A stretch of 64,000 bases of DNA from Mesaphorura yosii (lineage: Eukaryota; Arthropoda; Collembola; Poduromorpha; Tullbergiidae): positions 29,106 through 93,105 of the forward strand of contig WIXG01000312.1 in NCBI GenBank assembly GCA_009869945.1, written 5' to 3'. A program made the position numbers and the translations under genes. Below the pieces are notes generated by a model, which was not told the DNA's origin, ran no database searches, and saw only the letters and a program-made list of their open reading frames with translations. Every line of letters starts with the position of its first letter. Position 1 is the stretch's first letter. Below are positions 10,074 through 38,300 of the stretch, piece by piece.

Positions 10074-12799
10074 ATGCGTTTTAGCAAAATGCCACCGAAA
10101 TTCCAAGAATCTGTAAAGAAACTGATTAAAAAATGTTATCGTGGCACAGGCAGAGACAGGGATTACTCGATAATCGCACCGCCCGTAAAAAAGAGAAAGA
10201 CTCACGGCGGCGGTATTGAAATCAGGCGAAGTAACAACGCCAGCGCATGCAGATGTGGGACACGTTTAGTAGTCAGTTTCCTTTTGATTGGGATATGTGT
10301 CCTTACCTTCTTGCTTATCTTTTGTACTGGCAAATATATCCTTCGGAACAGTGAGCCTTTGGTTATCACAGAGTACAATGATGTGCATGAGCTGGAGTTT
10401 AGACCGACGACGACTGTTTATGACTCCACTCCAGTTCTCCAGAAGCAAAATGAAGATCAAGTCGAAGTCGAAATCGATGAAAATCTGCCAATGCTTAGCG
10501 AAATGAATGATCTTCTACCCGACTCCAAACCAAAAGTAGAAGGTAACTGATGAAAAATGATGTGCAAGTTTTATTATGTTAATCAATTTTCAGCAATTCC
10601 AGGCGGTTTTAAACTCCTAAACGAAGACATTCAGCCCACCGCTGGTGAGCATGAACGAGGAGCCTGTCAACTGCCAAAACTCGACCCGTTCGATGCGTCA
10701 ATTTTGGAGTTCGTCGACTTGGAGCCTTCTGGCATACTCGACTGTACCTTCAGGTACAATCGCCCAATTCTATTCACAACGGATTTCGGGTCGAATTTAA
10801 TTATGCTGGAGAACCCGGAAGACTACGACGTCCATGACTGCTGCTACACGCCGTTTGGAAGGCAGGACGAACAGGAAGTAATGTAAGTCCAAAAACTTCA
10901 AGCAAGGCGCTGGGAGCGCGTAGGGACACAAATTCGAATTTTCCCGACTGACCCTTTAACTCCGCCCACAGAATTTTGGATACCTGCTCTCCCATCGAAG
11001 ATAAGGTCACTCCAATCCCTCCAGAATACGAATTCATCATTGTCAACTGTCGCCTTCCAGGAAACTCGACAAAGAAGAATCCAGTTGACATGTTCAGTTT
11101 CGTGCACGAAGACTCTGACCGCTTGGCGCTCTCGCCGCATGCCGCATTGTATTCGAAGCTAAAACCGTCGCAGCCACTGAACGTTGTCATGATCGGAATC
11201 GATGCCGTATCCCATATGAACTTCATTCGCACCATGCCGCAGACGTACAGCTTCCTCCGGAATGCGTCCGCGATCGGGATGAACGGGTACACCAAAGTGG
11301 GAGACAACACCTTCCCAAATGTGACGCCAATTCTGACTGGGCTCAACGTAACTGAAGTGGAAGGCGAGGACGGCTGCTGGCGTGGCGAATACTTCGACGA
11401 TTGCCCCTTCATATGGAAGAATTACTCCCAGGCCGGCTACATGACGTCTTACGCCGAAGACGAGCAGTGGATGGCCGCATTCAATTATGGAAAGGCAGGA
11501 TTTTGGGAGCAGCCAACAGATTTCTATCTGCGACCGTTCATGATGACACTCGGCGACCGGCTTGGGCATATCAGCACAGGAAATGCGAACCTCTGCTACG
11601 GACCGCGGCTGGCTTTCAATGTGTTGCTTGACCACGTTCAAAAAATCGCGGTTACGATGGCGCGCCCTACCGTTCAGCGAAATTACTTTACATTCATGTG
11701 GACGAACTCGTTAAGCCACGACGAGCTGGACACGCCCAAGTATGGGGACACGGACCTCGTGAGCATGCTCCGCTGGTTTGAAGACTCCGACGGCGATATC
11801 AATCAGGACGACACGATCCTCGTTCTCCTCAGCGATCACGGAATGCGATGGGGCGATATTCGAACTACATTTCAAGGGCGCATCGAGGAACGGATGCCTT
11901 TTCTGTACTTCGTTTTTCCAGAACCGTTCAAGGCCAAATACACCCGGGCGGTGAAGAACATGGAGGTCAATAGCGCCAGGCTCACGACACCATTCGACTT
12001 GCACGAAACGCTTCTGGATTTGGTGGACGTTGAAAAGTTTATTTCGAATGAGGTGCTTGAGAGCAAGCGCCATCGGCACAGTGATTTGGATAGCAAATCA
12101 AAGTCTTTGCCGCTGCCCCGAGGAATCAGCCTCTTCGCCCCAATCCCGCCTTCCCGAACATGCGCCGACGCGTCCATCGAGAGTCACTGGTGTGTCTGCC
12201 ACTCGATGGAAGCGATTCCCAACCCGGCAGACAATGAACGAGTTCAGAAAGCAACCAGCGCCGTGTTGGCTGCCCTGAATGAAATGCTGGGTGAGTACCC
12301 GCAGTGCTCGCAACTGCAACTGACGTCCGTGCTGAATGCGCAGGAGCTCGTGCATCCTGAGCTCACAAATTTCGAAGACGAGGAGGACGGCCAACCCGAT
12401 TCGGAGACCGAACCGCCACCGCCGGCTGACGACTATCAACTTGCGCCAGAATTAGAGCAAAACGAGAGCGTGGGCGGTGCAGATGCAGATGAAGCCATGA
12501 ATTTGAATTTGAATTCCCCGCTCTCCCCGGATGCTGAGGACGGGTATGGCAACGACGACGGCGATGACGAAGCTGTTCAAGTAAGGCCAGCATCAAAATT
12601 AACGGTGACATTCAAAACATCGCCGAGCGACGCCATTTTCGAGGCGAGCGTCGTCGAACTGCCGACTGCAAACGGCGATCGTGGTCTTGGCGGTACAACG
12701 TGGGGCCTGTCGGGCGAAATCAGCCGTGTGAATCTATACGGAGACCAGAGTCGATGCGTGGACGAGTACAAGATGAAAAAATACTGCTTTTGTCCATAA
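10074..12799 (+). CDS. DUF229 protein, type II membrane-anchored, complete
   Basis: Three exons, 10074-10542, 10594-10882 and 10972-12799, encode 861 residues. The N-terminus is cytosolic and basic. One transmembrane helix (about residues 65-83, VVSFLLIGICVLTFLLIFC) anchors a large lumenal or extracellular part. The fold signature begins with VVMIGIDAVSHMNFIRTMPQT (Asp about residue 330) and DNTFPNVTPILTGLN (likely nucleophile Thr region). It continues with SLSHDELDTPKYGD and LLSDHGMRWGDIR (about residue 540), which supply the metal-binding Asp/His set of the alkaline-phosphatase superfamily. After the core come TTPFDLHETLLDLVD, a Cys pair block, an acidic linker and the conserved tail GEISRVNLYGDQSRCV...KKYCFCP. 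AATAAA is at 12895-12900. Substrate is unknown for this family. It lies 155 bp from the convergent gustatory receptor. Confidence 0.93.
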
Positions 12800-19304: not shown

Positions 19305-20795
19305 ATGTCTCCACCAAAACAGATTCCTGTTCTTTTCGTACGTGGAACTCACTACGAAGTCGGTTACGAAGTCGTAAGTCAAACTGCAAACTGGTCAACT
19401 GGAAAGGGTGGATAATTTTTCCAGAACCAGAACCCAATTCTTTACGTCTTTACAGGGCAGGCAATTTAAGGAAATGATCACCAGCCTAATTTCCAGCTGG
19501 GTCTTCTTCAACAAAGTGATTCTACCGAAATATGCGACTGACGAAGGACGGAAGGTGTACGAGACAACCCTGAAACTGTGCCAAGCCAAGTTTCCGCAGT
19601 ACGTGAAGGAGCTCGAAGGAATTTCAGCCGGATCTGGAGTGCCGTTCGACAAAATATTTCTCCTCCACATTGATTCGTTGCTCGCTCCACCTAACTCGAG
19701 CACTTCTGACGACGCAGGCTGCACGACCATAATTTCTGCTGACCCGAAGCACGTAAGTGGCGCAAAGTCAAATTTTTATTCTGAAGTAGTGCAGAAATTG
19801 GTAGTCGGGTACTTTCTGTGTTTTTGCACGCAGCCAATTCTGGGACACACCGAAGACGCGCCGACGGAGTTCCTGAACCATATTTACATCGTTGACGCGG
19901 AGATTCTCGATGAAAAGCAGGAGCGGCTCGAGAAATTCTGTTCGCTCGCGTACGCTGGACATTTGCCTGGCTACACGATGGGTTACAATTCGTCTGGATT
20001 GGTCTACACAATAAATACGCTGTACCCGGCGGAGACGACCCCAACAAAAACTCGTGCGCAATTCCCTATCACTGCTTAATTAACTGTCCAATCGCCAATC
20101 ACCAGGAGGGAGGTACAATTTCGCTAATCTCGGGTGTCTTTTTGCCTTTCCCGCCCACAGCCAGGAACTTTCTAACCCGCGCCCTCCTGGCGGCCGACTC
20201 CCTGGACGAAACGCTGACCATTTTGAGAGACACGGGCACCGGGACTTCAGATGGCTTCAGCATAAATCTAATTGTTTGCAAAGGGCAAGCCGAAGAGCCA
20301 GAGCAGTCGAACTTTTACAATATTGAAGTGGCACCAGTCGCACCAGGCCAAAATGAGTTCGCGTCCGAGTCAGACGTGAATTTGGTCAACATTACGAATA
20401 CGGGCCTTTACGCACATTGCAACCGATTCCTACGAATTTCCATTCCCGAGATCCGTTCCACAGTAAACGGAAGCAGTTTACACCGGCATAAAGCCATTGA
20501 CAGCCTCCGAGCCTCTAGCGCTGACACTAGAGCGCTGGAGCAGATCAAAATGATCCTCAGCGACACGAGCGACGGAAAGTTTCCAATTTATCGGAGAGGA
20601 GCGAAGCCGGACTCTTGCGCGACGCTTGCCGTCGGTAAATAAGTAATTTCCCAGATTCTGATCTCGGGAATGAAATCACATATCTTTCTAGGTATTTTCG
20701 ACGTGCGGGAGCAGACGTGGTCCATCTACCTTGACGCACCATGTAGCAGTTCACCAGCTTTAATTTTGCCATTGTATTTAGACAGTTTTTGCTGA
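19305..20795 (+). CDS. Tan-like Ntn hydrolase (peptidase C45 / acyl-CoA:6-APA acyltransferase family), copy 1
   Basis: Five exons, 19305-19373, 19456-19752, 19834-20053, 20161-20634 and 20692-20795, give 387 residues. Family landmarks in order: VLFVRGTHYEVGYEVGRQF, KELEGISAGSGVPFDKIFLLHID, then DAGCTT. Here Gly-Cys (Cys about residue 112) is the autoprocessing site whose Cys becomes the N-terminal nucleophile of the beta subunit. Next come GHTEDAP, YAGHLPGYTMGYNSSGLVYTIN, NFLTRALLAADSLDE, DGFSIN, YAHCNRFL and a closing strand IFDVREQTWSIYLD. The insect Tan enzyme cleaves N-beta-alanyl-dopamine and carcinine; fungal relatives acylate 6-aminopenicillanic acid. Which substrate applies here cannot be told from sequence. 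It is in tandem with a second copy 450 bp downstream. Confidence 0.9.
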
Positions 20796-21075
20796 GATTC
20801 AGTTCCCGAATTGTCTAACTGCTGTTTGTATTAAATAATTGAATGAACGAAACGAGAACGAATTGGTGTTGAGTTCATTTCATTGCTTGGCTTGGCCTGG
20901 CCAAGAGCTTTCACACTTGACTTGAAATTTGACCTTGGTTTACAGTGGCATTACGCAATTAACTGTACTGGCTATACTCGGCCAATTATCTTGAATCGCA
21001 ATCAGCAGTGCATTGGTATATTCGTGACTGAAACGTATTAATGATTCGTTAATCAACCATGGGTCACCGATATGC

Positions 21076-21111
21076 TATAAAAGCTACTCTCCTTCAAACG
21101 GCTTCAAACGG
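21076..21111 (+). promoter_or_regulatory. TATA box and probable start region of tan-like copy 2
   Basis: TATAAAAG sits at 21076-21083, followed at 21092-21111 by a direct repeat of CTTCAAACGG, where transcription would begin about 25-30 bp downstream of the TATA element. The coding ATG is at 21246 with no intron needed between. This is the clearest core promoter noticed in the window. Confidence 0.5.
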
Positions 21112-21245
21112 CAAGTCGCTTGCTAGAATCATCTTCGTGCGGCTCTTTTTTCCGCGTGTGGTTTGCGTTATTTGTTTTTGACCACTGTCAAAAACTGCCA
21201 ATTGGCCCATCGCGTTCGCTTCATCTGACACCGGTATCGGGCATC

Positions 21246-22873
21246 ATGTCGACGATTTCTGTGAACGTGGACGCAGACTTGGAGCGCTTGGAATCTGAGC
21301 TCCTGAATCACATTCCCATTCTTCACGTGAAGGGCACACATTTTTCAGTCGGCTACTCTATGGTAAGCAAATACCACTAAATTAAATCATCATGGACGCA
21401 ATTAAGCTCATGTCGTGGTTCAACGGTTCGATCATCTTTCACCTCACCAGGGACGCACGTTCAAGAATTTGGTACACGACCATCTGAAAAAAGCAGGCTA
21501 TCTCAGCGATCTACTGGCTGCCTACACCAGCGCCGAGGGAAAGCAGATTTACGACAAGTGCTTGGAAATATGCATGAGAAAGTATCCATTGCTCGTGAAG
21601 GAGTTGGAAGGAATTGCAAAGGGAGCTGATGTGCCCTTCTATAAAGTGAGTTAACTCATTCGGTGAGTTCAGGTGTTCATATTCAAAATTCTTCGATGGA
21701 TTAACTTCTGTTATTCTTTTCTTGTTTCTTCAGCTGTTTTTACTCCACATCGACACAATCATCATACCACCACAGAAGGCTAAAGTCCTTCACGACTCGA
21801 AAGGAGCAGGTGACAATGGATGCAGCGACCTCATTAGTTACGATTCCAAGAGGGTGAGCTATTTTTCTCTGAAGGAATTCCAGTTTCTGTTTGATTTTGA
21901 TCCGCCCTGATTCGACGCCGCAGAACATCCTACTTCTCGGGCATACCGAAGACGCCTCTCAGGCAATGAAGAACAACATGTTTATAGTCGTTGCGCAAAT
22001 CTACGACGAAGCAGGCACCCAGAAACTGGAGCACTTTGCAGCCATCACATACGCTGGCTTCTTGCCAGGCGCGACAATGGGATTTAATTACCAGGGGCTA
22101 TTAAACAGTAACAACACACTTCTGTCGCCGGTCACGTTTCCGTCTAGAATCCGTAAGGACTCAACTTCCACATGTGCCAGGTTATCTGGAGCCCTGGAGC
22201 CTTAGCTTAATTGATGCTTTTATTTTGAGCAGCAATCCTGTTTATGAACCGAGCACTCCTTGGCGCAAGGAATTTAGAAGAATCGATCCAAATTGTCGAA
22301 GGAAAGCCTGAAGGGGCTGCGGATGGGTTCAATCTTAACCTGATCTATGCTCCTGAGCTGAGATCGGCGATGGCGATGGCAGCGTCTTCGACGGTTTACA
22401 GCATTGAGGTCGTGCCAAACTTGAACGGGGACAGCAGCAACTCACCCGACACGAGCACAGTTTACGACGTTCAGCACGTCAAAGACAATTCAAGCTACGC
22501 CCATTGCAACAAGTGAGCCTTTTGATACTGAAATTAATGCCAAATTGTCTTGAGTTGAACGAATTTACGCAGGTACCTTCGCCTGAATGTGGTCGAGACG
22601 CATGGGAGATCGAAATCAAGTGAGTGCCGCATGGAAGTGATTCAGGCACATACGAAGTCAATGTCAGCGCCCACTTACGACTTGGAGACCATGAAACGGA
22701 TTCTGAGCGATCAGACAAACGCCGAGTACCCTGTCTTCAGAAATGGAGGGAAATGCGGAGGCTGGACTGCAATGGTGGGAATTTTTGACATCCCAAACAG
22801 AAAGTGGTACCTTTACAAAGAGCGGCCAGTGGACGCAAAACCGACTGCTGTGATTTCTTTGGATTTAGAATAA
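21246..22873 (+). CDS. Tan-like Ntn hydrolase (peptidase C45 family), copy 2
   Basis: Six exons, 21246-21362, 21451-21645, 21734-21853, 21924-22152, 22233-22512 and 22573-22873, encode 413 residues. The order of motifs is the same as in copy 1: ILHVKGTHFSVGYSMGRTF, KELEGIAKGADVPFYKLFLLHID, DNGCSDL (nucleophile Cys about residue 134, Gly-Cys kept), GHTEDAS, YAGFLPGATMGFNYQG, FMNRALLGARNLEE, DGFNLN, YAHCNKYLRL, MVGIFDIPNRKWYLYKE. Compared with copy 1 it has two extra intron positions: LFLLHID is split off by an intron, and the third large exon is divided after YAHCNK. So the duplication is old. AATAAA lies at 23017-23022, very close to the end of the convergent minus-strand gene. Confidence 0.92.
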
Positions 22874-24540: not shown

Positions 24541-27500
24541 TTAATTCTCTCTAAACCAATTCGTCATGCGACCCACGTACGCTGCCCTCCAGTCGACGTT
24601 CTTTTGAAGCTTCTGCAAGGAACTTCGAAGCGTTTCCGAAGTCGAGCCAAACTCTTCCTGATTGTCATTTATGAATACTCTGACGTCCGCAAGTTCTTCA
24701 GGCGTTGCCATATTCAAGCAGATCGTGTTCACAATTTTGGAAATGCCGGCCATGCCAAATCGATCAATGATCGTGTCCAAGTTCGACCTCAAGAAATTTA
24801 GTGTCAGCGTCCTTCCCAACACGTTTGTGGCAATCTTTTGAATAGCCACGACTCGGTCAGACTCGTCAAACGTCGAATTTTCGTGAATGGCTTCGTCCAG
24901 TAAACTGTTTCAGAAAATGTCGACGTCACATTAATTTGGGAGGCCCACGCCGCCACGCCCACATAATTTTACAGCAATCAGGCATTGAAGTACCTTTGAA
25001 GTGTGGCAATCTGCTTCGAGCAGGCCAGAGCGCTCAAAAGTCTCGGTTTTTGCACCTCGCTTCCAATTTCGTACTGTCCCCAGATGAAATCCACGTTAGT
25101 TTGATTTCCATGCTCAATCGCGTTGCAGTAAATGACGGCTTGAAGATCCGGTGGAATTCTGAGCAAGATCAAGATCAACATTGCTAATTAGCCGAGTACT
25201 AATCAGTGTGTAAATCTTGCTCTTACGGATTTTGGTTTGGATTCGCTTTCCATCGAGCAATGAAGTCATTCGTGTACGCGTTGCAATCTTCGGATCCCAT
25301 TCTGCAAACCCATTCGAGCAGCATGGAGCGGAGAATCACGTTTGCTCCTGGACAAGGCGATAAGCATGATTCATTTCCCATTAAGCATTATCTTTGTGCA
25401 AATTTATTTTGCCCACCTTTGTGATGTGCTTCTTGCCTGAATCCGATAATGGACATTGCCGAAAGAATTTTGGGTAGAAAGTATTTCTAAACGTCCACAC
25501 GATTCATCACTCTATAGCTTAATTCACTGGCCAGATTTGGCGACTTTTCTGCTAGTGCTAACTAACTTCCGTACCTTGAATTCAGGAAATGCGGGCGTTC
25601 CCATCAACTGATAGAAAGTGCTTTTCAAGTTTAAGACCAAAGTTTCCCAAACAATCCGGTCGTATTCTTTTCCAAGATATTTTGTGAAGCCGAGCGCCGT
25701 TTCAATATCGGCAAAATCTGCTCGACAGGAAATTTCATAAACAGATGCTTCGCCGAATTGTTAAATAAGGCTAACCTGTCGCGTTCTGGAACGCAGTCAT
25801 GAAATAATCGTCAATCAATTGACTCCTGCTCTGTGGACAGATTGTCGTATGTGCGCTCGCCAAAACTCTCCAAATCTGCCGTGTTATGTGGGCGTTGTAC
25901 ACAACTCGATAGTATCCTCTCGCGCAGGGGTTGACGATCACCCATTTCGTAAGATTCGCGACGGCGAACGTCGCCTCCGTCTGCAGCGGCCTCATCCAAA
26001 GCAGGGGCTTCGTACCTTCGAAATTCGGGTCGTCCTCCGTCGCGATTGCGATCGGAATGTACCAGCCAGCCGAGTCTTCTTGAGATGAGTTGATGCCACG
26101 GTATTGTTGCTAAAAATGGGCGGATTCAGCGCGAATTAAAAAAATTACACAGGGAAACTTTACAATTATTGCAAAGCTACCTGGCGAATGTGAATTGTTG
26201 TGTCATCCCCGGTCACATTGTAAACGTACAGAATTGGGAACCCTCGATTGTTCGTCCACGTGTCCATAATGTCCTTGACCGTCAGTCCCTCTGGCAGTGT
26301 GCCGTCAGCCTCGGCTTGTGCGCTCAAATGCGCGAAGAAGTCATCTTGCGTCGCTCCTTGATACGATCTGCAATTCGGAGATTCTGTAGTGATTGTGTAA
26401 ATCAAAGCTTGTGGAAGTTTCTTACAGCCCTTGCAAATAGTTGACGATGCTTCTTCGAACCGTTTCTGGTCCGAGGAAGCTGTCCATCATTTTCACGAGG
26501 CAAGAGCCTTTCCGCGCTGTGACATCATTAAAATTGTCTATGATCTTCATGGAACCATTGTTTTCGAGATGCTTTCCGACGGAAGAACCATACTCTTCGG
26601 TCAGGAGGGAATTTTGGAAGGCGTTAACGTGAAAGTACTTCAGCGGCTCAAATTCTGGCTGCGTGTGCTGCCAAGCGATGACGCTGGCGTAAGTCGTGAG
26701 GCCTTCGTTCAGCCTGCGAAGTATCGGCATCGGCTAATTAAATATATTGAATTCCAACTAACTTAGAGCTCAAAGACGTACCAAATGTCGTTCCACCACG
26801 CGCAGGTCACTAAATAGAAAAGCAATGAGTCGTTATCGTAATGCGTTTCCGAAAACGTTGAATCTTGACTGCATTGAATTACCCAAGTTTCCAAACCACT
26901 GGTGGCCCAATTCATGGGCCAACGTGTGACTGATGACTCCACGCTCTTTCTCCGTTGTCACATTAGCCGTATACAGCAAGAAAATCGGCCTGTACGTGTT
27001 GAGGCCCCAGTTTTCCATTGCACCGTACAGGAAATCGGGAATGGCTGCCGTGTCCATTTTTGGCATCGAGTATTCAGTCTCATAATAATCTTCGTAAAAT
27101 GCCAGCATTCTGGCGGTAGTTTCCGCCGCGTATTGTCCGTCTCCATTTGCAATTTGGTGTGGCACGCCATAAATCTGAAATAGTAGAAATAGAAATGCTG
27201 CCATTTTCGAACGACAACGATATGGTCAAGGCGAACGGCAATTTCTTACGCGGACAGGCTTTCGATACAATCCAGGCGGAGCTTCGGCGTATGTGAAGTC
27301 GCTCACCAGCAGGGCTATTAAGTATGAGCTCATAACAACCGTTCGTCGATAATGGTCCCAGAGCCAGCCTTGGAATTCGGGAGATTCACTGAAATATCAA
27401 GAAGTTGAAAGGTCACACCTTAATAATGAAATCAAGGATGCTAGTCAATCAGATTGGCTAGCTATCGGCCGGCAGGAGCGACACTTACATTTGGGAAGTC

Positions 27501-28463
27501 GAGACGACATCGGTGTTCGATAGCGTATTGTATTGAGCGGGAAGATAGCCGATGCTGATGTCCTTCGTGGCAAAATAATTATTAGCACTCGTTTTTCTTT
27601 AAGTAAATTTAAATCAAGACCAACTTACAAAAGTAGCCTTTAAACCAGGTTCATCAAAGCCCGGCGCCATTTGTCGAAATGAAAACATTTGAAATTGAGT
27701 CGCAGCAGAATATCTGTAGGTAAGCATATGCTGCATTTATTTCTAACTCATTTAGCATGTTCAATAGGCCACACTTACGAAACTTCATTTGTCTCCGGCT
27801 TTAGATAAGTGCTCAGATACAACCCATTCAGGACGTCTCTCGCAATGGGAGCCACGAATTCGACATAAATCTGGTAGGCCGCACTCGATTGCAGTCGCTG
27901 CCCAAACCTAACGACGAAGAAGTCCAGAATCTCATCGCGTTCGAAGCCGAGGATCGGGATCGAAGTGTTTGACGAGTCCGAGACCTGGGATATCATCGCT
28001 GATAAGCCTCGTTGGGGTAAATTCGAAGTGCGCATTAAACTTGGGCTCTTGGACTTACGCGAATGGAGCTTTCCAGAATTTCCAGGTTTGGCGATGCATG
28101 CAGCGTGATGTTGTCGGTTGGCTCCACGCAATTCACATCGATGCGCACTGAGCCCGGCGCAGTGAACCGGTCGTAGTCTCCGACTTGACTCTCCAAAATG
28201 GGAATTATCTTCAGGTCGTAATGCACGGGTACGACAGACTTTGGGAGCCTGTAACTCGGCGCATGACTCCAGTGGTTGTCGGGCAAAGGGCGTGGGTTCG
28301 CCTTGAATTTGGCAACGTCAACGGCGGCTGCGATTCTGTCGACGTGACCCGCGGCCGTAGATTTTGCGCGGGCTCCAGCTCGGAGGCGTGGGCGAAATAA
28401 ATTCGAATCAGCGAAGCTGATAAGGACGGATAAAACAATAAGCGCAGGAAGAAGCCGACCCAT
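24541..28463 (-). CDS. Secreted M1-family zinc aminopeptidase (aminopeptidase N-like)
   Basis: Fifteen minus-strand exons keep frame for 966 residues: 28059-28463, 27779-27984, 27629-27713, 27489-27562, 27250-27388, 26883-27174, 26782-26809, 26426-26713, 26181-26367, 25776-26109, 25575-25717, 25417-25486, 25227-25347, 24994-25158 and 24541-24904. A signal peptide (LLPALIVLSVLISFADS) precedes the YRLPKSVVPVHYDLKI start of the M1 fold. GAMEN (about 354-358) is intact, HELGH (about 390-394) is the HExxH zinc site, and the third ligand lies 18 residues on in WLNEG. The 28-nt exon 26782-26809 encodes VTCAWWNDI between these. The C-terminal ERAP1-like helical domain is present. No GPI-type hydrophobic tail is seen, so a secreted form is likely. 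It removes N-terminal residues from peptides. Minus-strand AATAAA is at 24494-24499. Confidence 0.95.
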
Positions 28464-29654
28464 TATTGAGCTGGAGGATTGCTTCGGCCTTGGCGTCTCT
28501 CCAGTTTCGAACTAACTGAACGCTCATTCGCGATTCGCGTTTCACTCACTCTTCTTGCGAGTATGAACAGCAAGTAGCAGAGTTTCATTCTCCTTTGACA
28601 TCGGCTGACCCCAGCTTCAACTCAAAACAGAGCGTGAGGACTGAATCAATGACTGGACTGGAAAGGATTACATTACGATACAGATTAACGGAATAATTAA
28701 TGCGTGTAGTGTGTGCTGTGGTGCAAGAGGGCAATGACAGCAAGTCAAAGAAATAAATAGAGAAAAGCACCGAATAACGGCAATTGTCTCCAGTAATTCG
28801 ATTCGTTATTTAATTAACAGGTGCTCGGTAGGCGGTTGTCAGTTTTATTAACCTAATTAACTGATAATGAAGAAGAGGAGCCGTAGCCTGATGAACTCCT
28901 AGAATGTTTTTCATGCGAATTGCGAATGCAATTGGACATGACCACGAAAAAGAAGACACGACGACGCTGACAGTTGTTAACTCAATTATCCAATATTGAC
29001 TCTTGACGTCGCAGGTGTCAAATGTCAACGTTGTGTAGGTCGGCGGCGTGCGTGCTGGAAGTGAGCTTGGAGTTCAGCAGATAATTATAATGGTATTTCA
29101 TCTCAAGTCGAAAGCGAAATCTGCGAATCGCGAATGCCATCAAATTTCTGTCTACCATTCTTTTAGACTCGACGTCTGCTACCAACGTCCAATGTAAATG
29201 CACGAGGCTACAGAAACCAATGTTTCTGCATGAAAATAACTGAAATCTGTTCTTATCACGCAGGTCTTCGAGCCAAACAGTTACGATAAATGATGGTTTA
29301 ACCATAACTGACTTGTAACCCAACAAAGTAACCTGTGAACAAAGCGTATATGAAGTTGCTTCAAGGATCTTGCTATATGTAAATAAAGCAGAATAGAACA
29401 TGTGATTTCAGAGTTCTCTTTCACTCAATCTGCGAAGAATCTTATTGGCCGTGAAGAAGTCAGTCAGTCCGAAACACGGTACTTTTCTAAAGATTTCATG
29501 TCGTGCAGTGCACCATTATTTCTAACTGTATTTAATTAATTATGGTAGACTAACTGGCTTAACGCTTAATAGAAGGGCTCGACGCTCGAGCTCATTTTTT
29601 TTCAGGCCGTAGGGCTGGGGGTTCTGCGTGCGGTTGTAACGTGATATTAGTGGT
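28464..29654. other. Intergenic between divergent aminopeptidase and TBC1D7
   Basis: About 1.2 kb, with promoters for both neighbours inferred from orientation only. A pyrimidine-rich TTTTTTTTCAG around 29596-29605 would suit the acceptor of a 5' untranslated exon of TBC1D7. No coding exon is supported. Confidence 0.4.
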
Positions 29655-31038: not shown

Positions 31039-31411
31039 GGACAATCGACACGATTGCAAAAGTTGTGAAAGAAACTGATATTTTAGTCCGCATTCCCGAA
31101 TTGAGTGCTACTCCAACTTACCCAAAGTGAACATTTCGACGTGTGCTATTTGCTAATCTCTAGAATAAGCTCAAAGTTCTTGTTCTTGATGGACAAGTCA
31201 TTTTTATTGTTGTGTTCGTTCGAATTCGTTCTAATCATAAAACTTATTACGTATACGTATGTAATAAATAGCTTATCTTATGATTAATCATATAAATATT
31301 TGCAAAGTGTTGCTATTTTTGGTATTCTGTGTTATGAATAAACTTGAACATGATTGTTACTGAAATTAAGCACTTTTTGGAAAAGGTTCTGGCAAACATT
31401 TCGGGAAAGGT

Positions 31412-31458
31412 ATCAGCTTTTCCTCCCTTCTTTACGAAGTTTTACGGAAAGGCGTCAT
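31412..31458 (-). promoter_or_regulatory. SECIS element (type 2) in the selenoprotein K 3' UTR
   Basis: Read on the minus strand, ATGA (31455-31458) is followed 11 nt later by AAAA (31440-31443) and then TGAT (31412-31415), the SECIS quartet and apical-A signature. GCCTTTCC on the 5' side pairs with GGAAAAGC on the 3' side (7 of 8 pairs), giving helix II. Above it CTTC-GTAAA-GAAG forms the small extra helix that marks type 2 SECIS. It lies about 230 nt past the stop codon. SECIS directs UGA to be read as selenocysteine. Pairing of the basal helix I was not obvious by eye. Confidence 0.85.
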
Positions 31459-31685
31459 AAAATCAAGTAATTGATTTCATCACGAAATGCTACACCAAAA
31501 ATTAAGAATGTACTGGACATGGACGTTAATTTCTAGTAACAAGGCGAGAGTTAGGAATTCGGGGAAAAGAAAGAATGTCAAGCGGCAGTATAGATCTCTT
31601 AACAGGAATTATGCGATAAGACGGTGATTGCGATAATTGAAAATTGCGACCCAAGACCCCCTGTGCGGTGAATCCTGGGCTGAGC

Positions 31686-32283
31686 TTAACCTCATCCTCC
31701 TCCAGGTGCGCATGGCGGCGGTGCGGGCGCGCTCCCACTGGTGAAACCTCCCATCCTCCTAATTATCGGAATTCGAAGCAGGTTAGGCGATAGGTTGGTT
31801 AAAGTTTAATTGGAAATTGGGTACTAAGAATCAGAAGTTACCTCCGCGGCCACGCTTGTGGAAAGGCTCGTCCATTACTGTTACTGTTCCTATTTCCATT
31901 TCCATACTGACCTCTTGACGATGGATCGTCGAGGTGAAATAATGAGCGAAAGCTAAGGAAAGAAAATCGGAAAATCGCATTATTATTGGAGGCAATTAGT
32001 TGGAACACATGTTGGCAAGATAAAATAACACCAATTTTTGCACTCACAAGAATACAAAGAAGCCAATAAAGCCCCAGAAGAGGTCCACCACGTAGCTTAC
32101 TCCAAAGGGTCTGGATTCTTGAAGTCTTCCGTCTACGAAACAATAAGTACGAATTAATTGCCCAACTCACTGATTCGCAAATAACAATCACGGAAATTAA
32201 CAATCAGCGTCATTGACGCTGATTTACATTCACGCTCTAGTAAACATTAATTTAATTGGCTCACCTTGGCCGACGTAAACCAT
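31686..32283 (-). CDS. SELENOK: Selenoprotein K, with in-frame UGA (Sec) codon
   Basis: Four minus-strand exons, 32265-32283, 32048-32132, 31842-31952 and 31686-31737, encode 88 residues when TGA at 31692-31694 is read as selenocysteine. The protein starts MVYVGQDGRLQESRPF, has one transmembrane helix (VDLFWGFIGFFVFLF), then a Gly/Asn/Ser-rich arm (SSRGQYGNGNRNSNSNG) and ends APGGG-Sec-Gly before TAA. All of this is the SelK plan (MVYVGQG..., FFWG, Gly-rich tail, GG-U-G-R). Splice phases (1,2,2) keep the frame up to the UGA and the real stop two codons later. The matching SECIS is at 31412-31458. SelK is an ER membrane protein in ER-associated degradation and protein palmitoylation. A standard gene finder would truncate it. 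Confidence 0.93.
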
Positions 32284-32963
32284 TTTGTTTGGCGTTCGTC
32301 CGTCAGCCTCCTCCTTTCTAAGCAGTGGAGCGAGCACAAGGGCAATTTGTTGAAGAAGTTTATTAATTATCTACTTGATACTTGATTGAATTCAGCAACT
32401 GATTTGGATTTTGGCTAGAATTAATGAATTAAATTCTATTACAATTACGTGTTAGTGCAGAAATTTACACCACACAATAAATGAAAAATATTGCGTTAAA
32501 TTGCTTACAAGGTAAAAGGCGCACTGTAATTTCTTGTGTTCAGCTGACGTGTGTGTATTTGCAAGAGAAGTGACGAAACTTCGAAACGAAACTGAAAGTT
32601 TTGAATAAAATGCAACAGTGACAGTGCAAAATCACACTGTGAAAGAATTCTAAGGCCAGTTGCTTCCGCGGCTTTAGAATTAAGATTAATTGTCCATGAT
32701 TTGCCTGCACTCAAGTTAATATTCTGGAAACTTAAAAGGTAAGAACAATTTTCCGCACTTGCCAAAAAATCAAGCTGCAAGTAAAAAATTTGGAAATTTC
32801 TTGTGTGACTAGCACAAGAGGGACAATGCAATGTGTAAAAACAAATTCTTGGGGGAGATAAGAAACTCCAGTCATTTTGGTAAGGCACGAATCATTTTGA
32901 CGAAATCGCAACTCTAAGCTCAGAGGATATCGTGTTTATTTTGTCAGCTGTTCGGCCACAGAA
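32284..32963. promoter_or_regulatory. Shared divergent region between SELENOK and SECISBP2
   Basis: Exactly 680 bp separate the two start codons, which point in opposite directions. No coding exon is supported inside. Any promoter and 5' UTRs for both genes must fit here, so a bidirectional promoter is likely by position; no TATA box stands out. Confidence 0.5.
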
Positions 32964-35364
32964 ATGGGTACCCCCAACCAATCAATGAATACGGACAGTG
33001 GAAATGGTGATGGGTTTAAGCTAGTCACAAGGCGGAGGCTCGCCCATGAATTTAAGACGCGGTCCCACGACGACGTTGGTCCATTTGATACAAGTTCAGG
33101 CAGAAGCAGCTCATTCAAGGCACGAACACATTCCATTGGCAACCCAGTGAAGAGCACCGGCACACACGAAAGCCCAACATTGCCGTCCCCATCTTCGGGT
33201 CCGACTACAGGACCTTCGAATGCTTCTGCGCCAAATGTCGCGGCCGAAAATGCACCTGCAAAAAAAAGTAAGAAAAAGAAAGAATCCAAGGAGGCGAGGT
33301 TACGTCGGAGAGAAGAGGAGAGATTCAAAGCAATTTATGGACCGAAGGATTCACGAATTCAAGTCATGAGTCCGGCCGTTTTCTCCAGGCTTCAAGGAAA
33401 TCAGCAAGCGTCCAGTCACCCCGTAGTAAGGGCCGTCCAGCAAAATACGCGAATAGATTCTCCCATGCCTGCGACAACGTCTGATAATGGACGCGTTAGC
33501 TTTCCTGAACCGCAATGGGGTAAAACTTTGAACTTTTTGTCTCCTGACATGAAAAGTGAGTTTCCAGAGCTTGGAGCTGATCCTTCGAGGCCAAGCAAGC
33601 CAATTCAGCTGTCTCCTGAAAGTTTAGCCACGCCTTCGACAAGTGCGAATGCGAATTCAATCGCTGCATCAAAATCGAAATCAGAGTCTGAGCCTGGTTT
33701 AAATGCCAGTGTGGCGACTCCCAGTAACGATCCGTCATTTAGTAACGCTGTGAAAACTGAAAATGTTGGAACTTCAACTACTTTGACACCGACCACAGAT
33801 CTGAATTTGAATTCGAATTCGCCGAGTCCTTCAAAGCCCGAAACCCCGAAAACGAACAAGAAGAAGCCCTCGAAGGCTCCCTTAATCGTCAATCTTGAAG
33901 CTCTTTTGTCTGCGAAGAAAGACGCAGCAACGCCGAAACGGTCAACTCAAGCCTTGGCAAAAGCCGCAAGAAAATCAGCGCGTATCAGCATTAACGAAAA
34001 GACGCTGCAACCGGCTGGTAATATTCTGGACTCGTCAGGAATTAAAGTCATGCACAGAGGCAAAATGAGGGAGACGCCAAAGAAGAAGAAACCGTCAAGG
34101 TTAAAAAGGGCAATTCTGTTGTCGAGGCAATTAAGAAAGCAGCTGACAATCTCCGAAAACCTCAACCGAAAAAACTCGGGCGTGGGCGACCAGGAAAGCG
34201 TCGCGGATTTACAAGGGTTATCTAAATTAACGCTGAACTTGTCGCTGGAGAATTCACCGACGGCGGCGACCGTCAATTTACCTGTGACAAATGCCAATGA
34301 CCCCTACCTCAGTCTAGTCAAGCATGAGCCAGGATCAAAGATTTCCCGGTCACAGTCACCGCCTGAAGACATTCATCAGGAAATTGTTTCTCAAGGTAAA
34401 AAGAAATCGCCGGAAATAGAAATCAAGCAAGAGCAAAGCTTCGACGACGATTCTGATTCTGAGTGCAAGCTGGCAACTGCCGCAGTCGTCTTGCAGCCTG
34501 ATTACTTTCATAATTTGGTCGAAGGCGCCATTGCCACTGCCATAAAACCAGATCCTGAACCGTCTGAGCCCCAGCCAGCATCTGAAGAGGTCAAGTCTAT
34601 GAATTTGTCTCCAGAAATGATAGAAGCAGTGAAGGCTCAAATGCACAATCGAAAATTTCGAAAATACTGTGATATGTATACGAGCAAAGAGCTCCACGGC
34701 CTTGTTATCAGTTTGCTTAAGCAATTACATCATTTTCAAGATAAACTCTACAAGACAGACAAGCTCAAATACAAACTGAAGAAGCGGTACGTCCACGGAA
34801 CTCGAGAGATTATGAATTTCATGAGCATCAACAAAGTGCAGATGATCATCCTGGCGCCGGACATTGAATCGAATAAAAACGTGAAAGGTGAGTACAAAAT
34901 CAAAGTTCGTCTAATTTTGCCGCGCGGTGGTGGAAGGCATGTGTTCTTGTGAATCGTGGATCTTGTGCTTTCGCAGGTGGATTGGACGACGTCCTCGAAT
35001 CCATGCTGGCCACAGCCAAATCCAAGAACGTGCCCGTCGTTTTCAGTGGAAATCGTTACGTGCTTGGGATTCCGATAAAGATAAAAACTCCGATAAGCGC
35101 CATTGGAATTCTGGACCATCAAGGAGCTGAGGTTCATAGAAACTCTAAACTTCTTAGCGTGTCCTCCTCTCATGCCTGCCTTCCTTGTGGCTTAAATGCA
35201 CTGTGTACTTTAATTTTCAGGATCCGTACCGCAAAGTGCTGGACACAGCGGCGCAGCTTCGATTGAATTATCAAACAGAATTTGTTAATATAGTCCAAGC
35301 CTTGGCCTTGACACCGACTTCGACATCAACGACGGCGGCAACAGAAGTAGCGTCCAAAGAATAA
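32964..35364 (+). CDS. SECISBP2: SECIS-binding protein 2
   Basis: Three exons, 32964-34887, 34977-35131 and 35221-35364, encode 740 residues. A huge first exon carries a low-complexity, Ser/Lys-rich N-terminal region (KKSKKKKESKEARLRRREEERFKAIYG, then several Lys-rich blocks). The C-terminal part is the functional core: KLKKRYVHGTREIMNFMSINK, then the L7Ae RNA-binding fold (VQMIILAPDIESNKNVKGGLDDVLESM, VPVVFSGNRYVLGIPI, AIGILDHQGAEDPYRKVL). These match SBP2 landmarks (KRRLVLGLREV, GGLDD, FALNRKALG). SBP2 binds the SECIS element and recruits the selenocysteine-specific elongation factor. Its adjacency to SELENOK is notable. AATAAA is at 35494-35499. Confidence 0.92.
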
Positions 35365-38300
35365 TTTAGTCGTAGTTGAAGTAATTCGTTTAGAAACCGG
35401 TTGATACCAGCTTTACAAGCGGAAGCTGAAGTTGACCTATCAGAGCTTTCGTTTCAAAAGAAATTCTATTTTTGTACCGAATTCGAATATTCGAATAAAA
35501 CGCAATATCAATCAAAATGTGCTGTGCTCGAGCCCGCCGCGAGTCAGAGCCGAGGTCGTTGACAAGCTCTGTGCCGTGCCGTGACGCGGCACCATCTTAA
35601 AATGTAATGCAGCAATTAGCAATAATAATAAAATCCGCCGTGCTGAAAGCCAATGGCTATTGCCAAGCGGAACCATAAAAATTAATGCTTTGTGCCTCGA
35701 TTCACTCAAAGTTCGCTGTCGCTGTTTTACGAGAAAGGAAATCAATTGCCAGTAATTAAGAACTTCACGACTGACGACAGGCGACTGGCGTGACGCGTGA
35801 CATAACAAATAATTTTAATGACTGCACTGTACTGCACTGCACTAGCACTAATTAAGAGCAGGTGTTGATGTTTAGTGTTTATGCCATGCTGGCGTTGGCG
35901 TGCTCTGACGTGCGCGACTTTGATTTTCTAGGCTCGCGAGCGCGGATGTGAACGCCTTTGTCTTGGACTTCTATTTCGCTTTCGACATGGCTCCTTATGC
36001 ATTCATAAGTTAATGAGTCGTCCCACACATTTCCAACCTAAATTATACCTTATTGGGGTATTTGCATAGTTACATCAGTTTGACTTGAGTGTACGCAAAG
36101 AAATGCCCAGTCCAATGATGAGTTCACTTAACGGAGTTTGAGTATTCGGTATTAATGCAGTAAATTATGCCAGCGTCAATTTCTGAACATTCGGAGAGGA
36201 GCCGATCTGAATAAAATAGTGCTCACATTCTGGGCTGCCGTCATTTAATAATTCAAAGTATGTTTCGAGTTTCGGCTCCAGGATGAATACACGACGGAAG
36301 GAATACATTTCTTGTGATTATGCTTATACACTATCACTATCAATTAGTTGTCATTTTCATGTTGACACGCAGCATAAAGCATGGCGCATTATGACATAAT
36401 TTCAGGACGCAGGAAACTGAATTCCTCAATCTCTTCACAACACGAACACGAACAAAAGCTAATGACCAAAGAAGAGGAAGACAATAGGAAACTGGGGTTC
36501 TGTAAAGGATATTTTAGATTTTGTCTTTTTATGAAAGACATGCATTTCTTGCACGTGAAAGACGTAAGACGCAGGCGAAGGCGAAGCGAGATGTCATTTA
36601 GCATGTAAAATGGATCGGAACGAATGTAAACGGCAAGCATGGAAAAATGCGGGCTGTTGACGTGCAGGAATTCGTGCGAGGTAGAACAAAAGAAAGGAAA
36701 GTTTGGAACGTGAAAGGCAAATGAATGGCTGGCATGGCATTATGTTGCCTGGCTTTGCCCGTAATCTTGCTTGTCGGCTTGTGTTTGTAAATAATTAGCA
36801 TTAGCGAGTGGAGAGCGTTTTACATTTCACGCGTGAGTTCCGCGAAGTGAAGTGAACAACTGTTTTGCTGTCTGCTGTTTAGCTGTTTTGTTTAGCTAAT
36901 GAACATCTTACTTTTACTTTTGCTCTTGTTCTTGCGAATCATTGAAAAATGATGCTCGAATCGGAGTAATGAAGTGGAAATCTGAAAAATTGTCCGCCTA
37001 ACACTTAACTGAATGTGTTTTTAAGTTTCTTCGCTCTTCGCTCTAGTTTGCTCGCTCGAATGTCACGAACATAATTTAAAATGTGCGGATTAAGGCTCGG
37101 CTCAAGGCTGGTTGGATTGGGATTAATTTCGGAAATTCAGAACTGGAAATTCACGCAAATTCTTCCAGGCCAAGGTTCCAAGTTTCGTGGTTGGAGCCTT
37201 CCACGCACGGGCCCGCGCACGTGGCTTGGTGACTTTCCGGTTCTTTCCATACCCAAACTGTTGGCGGCGTTTTATTGCTCGCTTGGTCGCCTCAAAACCA
37301 AATTTCCGGATAGCATCCGGAAAAAGTATGCGGGACACGCGTGCGCGTAGCCAAATTAATGTCATGTCGCCCGTCTGTTTTGAGTCCTTCGCCTTGGTTT
37401 GCCTGAGTAACTGACATATTGAAAGCTGGACAAGCGTGGGCAGGGTAAGACAGGACATATATGCCATTATGCTTTATATTTACGTTTGCAAATTCAATCT
37501 TTGCAAATATTGGTAATTCATAATATATTTGCAGTGAATTTCCAGTTTATCCAGCTAAAATGCTCAATGAATTTGATGAGTTTGCGAGAATGAAAACCTC
37601 GAGGCGAAACTGAGCCGAAAACACTCGAATTACGAGCCGAGGAATCTTCCACTTTCCGCTTAATTTGCATTAGCATTGAGTGTACAGGAAAAGTGTACAC
37701 AAGTTAATTGCTTTCTCGTGTTTCGTATAAATCAATCACCCACTTGAATTTGGCAGACAAGAAAAGTGCGGTAGGAAGAGAGCGAATTCTCCGTTTTCCA
37801 CTCTGCACCGCTGAAACTGTACGTCATTATCATTATTGCCTTTCGCTGAATTCTGTTTCGATTAAAAGTGGAGTTCAATTCGCAGTTCTGAGGAATTTAA
37901 AAGCCAAGCTCTGGCAAATGTCGGCAGCACCCTCGCATTCACATTCTCATTTTGCTTTTGCGTGCTTGGATTGGCATGTTGGCAGTTGGCAGTGAAACTG
38001 AGAACGCTGGAGGCTGAATGTCTGAAAGCCTGATGAATGATTTTGTCGAAATAGAAAACGAAAAGGTAAACAAATCAAATCCGAAATCATGAATTGCTGA
38101 CAGATCGCTGAAGTCAAGGGATGGGTCGACTGAAGTGGTCAGTGAGGAATGAGCATATCAACGCTTCGAGAAATGAAGTTAGTGAAGGAACCCGTAACAT
38201 CCAACAGTCTCTTTCCCATGTCGCGACAGTTCGGTGGAATGTTTTGTGTGTAATGTTTTCTGTTGAATATTTTCACTTTTCAAGCGGCACGAAAGGTGAA

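Follow-up and report, generated by a model that had tools for sequence, protein, structure and literature searches.

Head-to-head genes for selenoprotein K and SECIS-binding protein 2 in the genome of the springtail Mesaphorura yosii

The gene for selenoprotein K (SELENOK, minus strand) and the gene for SECIS-binding protein 2 (SBP2, plus strand) stand head to head in this genome, with 680 bases between the two start codons (Table 1). The reading that we favor, at a probability of about 0.72, is that of an ordinary divergent pair, in which two intact genes have become adjacent by the chance of lineage and possibly have a common open promoter region. The window, that is, the whole stretch of 64,000 nucleotides that was analyzed, takes up contig C312 on its right-hand side as far as the contig end, in a draft genome of 93.0 Mb and 1127 contigs. 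A search of this assembly for COX1 gave no match. The gene identities, the divergent orientation and the distance were already part of the initial annotation, and gene models, Pfam and phmmer searches have borne out all three.

Table 1. Coordinates of the features discussed (positions in the window)
Feature	Position	Strand	Remarks
SELENOK coding region	31686..32283	-	4 exons: 32283-32265, 32132-32048, 31952-31842, 31758-31686; 95 residues including Sec
Predicted Sec codon of SELENOK	31692..31694	-	in-frame TGA, penultimate residue; context GGA GGA TGA GGT TAA
SECIS-like element, SELENOK 3' UTR	31398..31468	-	form 2 by short apical helix; Rfam SECIS_1, 20.3 bits
Candidate SELENOK poly(A) signal	31203..31208	-	AATAAA; pattern only
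Spacer between start codons	32284..32963	.	possible shared promoter region; 680 bases, 36.9% G+C, no TATAWA
SBP2 coding region	32964..35364	+	exons 32964-34886, 34976-35131, 35221-35364; 740 aa
Candidate SBP2 poly(A) signal	35494..35499	+	AATAAA; pattern only; 2 further at 35627, 36210

The two genes and the SECIS-like element

The SELENOK model contains three introns, all of them GT-AG (132, 95, and 83 bases), is preceded by in-frame stops upstream of the start codon, and predicts a protein that starts with MVYVGQDGRL and ends in APGGG-UGA-G-stop. With Sec entered as Cys in the query, the product matches the Pfam family SelK_SelG over profile positions 1-84 of 86 (1.3e-18; 67.9 bits against a cut-off of 23.3). 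In the genome search the SelK match falls at one locus, on the second exon of SELENOK, and scores 21.9 bits, slightly below the family cut-off because the introns split the gene. The in-frame UGA described in the initial annotation is present, directly before the final glycine and the stop codon, and its assignment to selenocysteine is inferred from the GGUG-type C-terminus, which also occurs in selenoprotein S of the same genome. The gene thus shares with the animal SelK_SelG family the profile match, the C-terminal Gly-Gly-Sec-Gly and a SECIS-like element in the 3' UTR; it differs from animal selenoprotein K in the weak score of its SECIS and is otherwise typical.

That element lies about 220 bases downstream of the UGA. 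The Rfam model aligned to it in full, with AUGA, AAAA, and UGAU placed as expected and a short apical helix, and yet its score of 20.3 bits stays under the Rfam cut-off of 35 bits; the E-value is 0.35 for 4227 families and 701 bases, or about 8e-5 by our own arithmetic if SECIS alone is asked for. Neither the scan of the window at the gathering cut-off nor the genome-wide SECIS scan at E<=10 returned it, and a strict self-made SECIS descriptor failed to pick it up. When the sequence is folded without constraints, the AUGA is paired in a competing upstream hairpin, and a fold that leaves both AUGA and UGAU free is 3.9 kcal/mol less favorable, while it retains the UUUCC/GGAAA and CUUC/GAAG helices. 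Since the AUGA can join this strong upstream hairpin (31430-31480, minus strand), the element may alternate between two folds. Such a low score seems acceptable to us because in this genome the UGA-bearing glutathione peroxidase (GPx) gene is followed by a SECIS-like match of 21.8 bits, likewise below the cut-off, and because the SECIS of tick selenoK, graded A, is reported with an Infernal score of 19.62, albeit from another program and model (PMC6555942). Of the well-formed type-2 SECIS that had been claimed, the core motifs and the short apical helix therefore stand, whereas the score and the competing fold speak against "well-formed"; on its sequence, we regard the element as credible, not strong.

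The SBP2 coding region is likewise preceded by in-frame stops upstream of its start codon. Residues 595-693 of the product match the Pfam L7Ae family (2.5e-8), which gives it the L7Ae-type RNA-binding domain, and residues 535-726 match the SBP2 chain 7zjw_B (phmmer, 1.7e-37). A second stretch matching 7zjw_B, at residues 203-399 (NILDSS...KMRETPKKKKPSRLKRAILLSRQLRKQ), corresponds to the Sec-incorporation region and is weak when taken alone (i-Evalue 0.15). Both the Sec-incorporation region and the L7Ae RNA-binding domain are shared with protostome SBP2 (PMC2746813), from which we noticed no notable difference. The name SBP2, as opposed to SBP2L, is a provisional one based on these domain and chain matches, with one such gene found in the genome. 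A scan of viral contigs with the protein returned zero relatives.

It could be argued that the pair is an artifact, the two genes having been misjoined in assembly or one of them being a dead copy, in view of a draft of 1127 contigs and a window extending to a contig end. Against this, the pair lies within one gap-free stretch, the exons of both genes are open and correctly spliced with ends typical of their families, the spacer occurs in single copy in the genome, the SBP2 exons were found at one locus only, and the searches turned up neither gene a second time; we consider such an error very improbable. The window also encodes a long open reading frame assigned to DUF229 on the plus strand (10952-12799; 3.7e-125), apparently two adjacent genes with similarity to penicillin acyltransferase-type enzymes (AAT) on the plus strand (19378-22873), the first of which matched at 3.6e-14 in a scan that covered the first only, and a Peptidase M1 (aminopeptidase) gene on the minus strand (24541-28511), on the far side of SELENOK.

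Selenocysteine decoding in the rest of the genome

The genome search recovered a tRNA-Sec (74.6 bits, anticodon TCA), SEPSECS (five matches on C190) and PSTK, whose 128.5 bits fall short of the strict NCBIfam cut-off. SPS2 is represented by three matches, again under the NCBIfam cut-off, and its active site contains an in-frame TGA (ELKG-UGA-GCKVPQ; C589, position 29956). Rfam searches of the 9.2-kb SPS2 locus, and of its downstream portion, gave no SECIS, which either counts against SPS2 being decoded or reflects the limits of the model. Selenoprotein S, which PMC6555942 describes as working with selenoprotein K in ER-associated degradation, runs on C322 from about 14547 down to 13387, ends in GGRQGG-UGA-G and has a SECIS of 35 bits, equal to the Rfam cut-off. 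The UGA-bearing GPx (C426, 2091-2982) has its TGA at the active site (NVASK-UGA-GKT); it is one of five GPx matches in the genome, of which a second has Cys, and the scan for the active-site motif found none on the C141 and C1052 matches. There are also two SelT-like loci, one of which apparently has Cys at the Sec position when read across an intron. Taken together, most of the selenocysteine pathway is present, and the animal very probably makes selenoproteins. The proposal that this lineage kept the pathway thus holds, with tRNA-Sec, SEPSECS, PSTK, selenoprotein S and UGA-bearing SPS2 and GPx all found. A UGA-bearing GPx contrasts with holometabolous insects, for all of which GPx and TrxR are described in cysteine forms only (PMC4244043); outside that group, the Paraneoptera are reported to have selenoproteins (PMC7376646).

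Whether the pathway as a whole is clustered can be judged as far as the contigs show. Eight genes were located (SELENOK, SBP2, selenoprotein S, SPS2, the UGA-bearing GPx, tRNA-Sec, SEPSECS, and PSTK), and only SELENOK and SBP2, two of the eight, share a contig. The tRNA-Sec, SEPSECS, PSTK, SPS2, selenoprotein S and GPx genes lie on C32, C190, C5, C589, C322, and C426, respectively, and none on C312, so that clustering of the whole pathway was rejected on this scale, at which different contigs may still belong to the same chromosome.

Spacer, chance and conservation

The spacer was searched with a panel of 16 promoter motifs, the expectation for each being taken from 200 letter shuffles. No match to TATA, DRE, CCAAT, CCACG, CACGTG or SP1 was found in it. 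Counts exceeded expectation for CAGCTG (4 against 0.17, from two sites that each register on either strand), the Inr-like TCAKTY (5 against 2.06), TGACGTG (1 against 0.06), the MRE-like TGCRCNC (1 against 0.20) and ARE-like sites (2 against 0.92); we do not build upon these counts because 16 motifs were tried on a small spacer. By pattern only, a possible intron in the SBP2 5' UTR would have its splice donor at 32739 and its acceptor near 32948. The TGACGTG at 32545 is an XBP1-like core, of the kind expected in an unfolded-protein-response element, and it was tried as a shared stress element. Across the 64-kb window there are 14 copies of the motif against 8.1 expected by shuffling, about one per 4.6 kb, so a single copy in 680 bases means little; the 7.5 kb surrounding selenoprotein S contained none, and the 9-kb SPS2 and SEPSECS loci each contain a single copy, in neither case at a promoter that was noted. 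As a shared stress element the motif was rejected on the window count and the selenoprotein S locus.

These observations bear on the idea of a true bidirectional promoter, which would couple SELENOK to SBP2 through one shared element, such as one of the unfolded-protein response, and would raise decoding capacity when the ER selenoprotein is needed. It is tempting to entertain it, given start codons facing each other at so short a distance, a putative 5' UTR intron that would bring the start of SBP2 nearer to SELENOK, the XBP1-like core itself, and the precedent of CRELD2-ALG12, an ER-stress bidirectional pair (PMC3091781). This mouse pair is comparable in being head to head, within 1 kb, and with one gene of ER-stress kind; however, its ER stress element was tested, whereas the single core in our spacer occurs at chance-level frequency. 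The distribution of the motif at the other selenocysteine loci and the want of CCAAT, CCACG, E-box and SP1 matches likewise weigh against the coupling, which we consider unlikely. A promoter shared in the looser sense is plausible on the sequence, with no stress element in the spacer convincingly prominent, and the promoters of the two genes presumably overlap.

How far is the arrangement to be expected by chance? Assuming 24 pairs (four selenoproteins by six factors) and 12,000-20,000 genes, a head-to-head pair of a selenoprotein and a factor would be expected in about 0.06-0.1% of genomes. Pure coincidence is therefore unlikely for this genome taken alone; the same does not hold for a scan across numerous genomes and types of pair, in which any striking pair in any window would be picked up. 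Close divergent pairs are themselves common in compact genomes: in D. melanogaster, 31.6% of the genes belong to pairs within 1 kb, for the most part housekeeping genes that lack a TATA box (PMC2670823). Our pair resembles those described there for Drosophila and vertebrates in having opposite-strand neighbors within 1 kb and a TATA-less spacer, although the published distances are between transcription start sites and ours is between start codons. Divergent and close pairs of D. melanogaster are reported to tend to more, not less, rearrangement (PMC3129673).

Another possibility is an old linkage, conserved in the wider arthropod or ecdysozoan lineage and unreported since the gene order of the factors is rarely examined. 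The initial annotation knew of no description of a SELENOK-SBP2 linkage, and our literature search, which left most subscription papers outside its scope, found none either, in line with such a history. In human the two genes are unlinked, SELENOK being at 3p21 and SECISBP2 at 9q22, and in D. melanogaster we take the accession block of AAF48111.2 to belong to X and that of AAF50448.2 to 3L, that is, to different chromosomes; both comparisons argue against conservation. These two accessions are those given for SelK and SBP2 of D. melanogaster by Chapple and Guigo (PMC2500217), whose syntenic regions are confined to Drosophila and are described as not feasible for other insects, which leaves some room for a conserved linkage. 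All in all, we regard it as quite improbable.

Meaning of the arrangement

Under the ordinary divergent pair that we favor, translation of SELENOK would insert selenocysteine as the last residue but one, and the SBP2 product would bind the SECIS of all selenoprotein mRNAs, that of SELENOK among them; we infer that the UGA is decoded as selenocysteine and that both genes are expressed. The two 5' UTRs would fall within the 680-base spacer, together with one or two promoters lacking a TATA box, in an open chromatin region probably common to both genes, and weak co-expression of two broadly expressed genes would be possible. The neighborhood would then most likely be a chance arrangement of the lineage and not the product of selection for control by selenium or stress. 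Selection for joint regulation is possible, though we would not expect it. In its most far-reaching version the pair would be conserved and bidirectional, and a shared promoter, probably responsive to ER stress, would act as a single switch for SBP2 and SELENOK, that is, for decoding capacity and one of its main clients, and make the two genes tend to be lost jointly; this appears improbable to us.

At present, the value of the observation is that of one divergent pair in one genome, together with a partial inventory of a selenocysteine-using animal. We know of no earlier case of a selenoprotein linked by its promoter to its own decoding factor. Should the linkage turn out to be conserved and the two genes co-regulated, a selenoprotein would be wired at the promoter level to the factor that decodes it, and this would offer a handle on how the loss of selenoproteins starts in arthropods.
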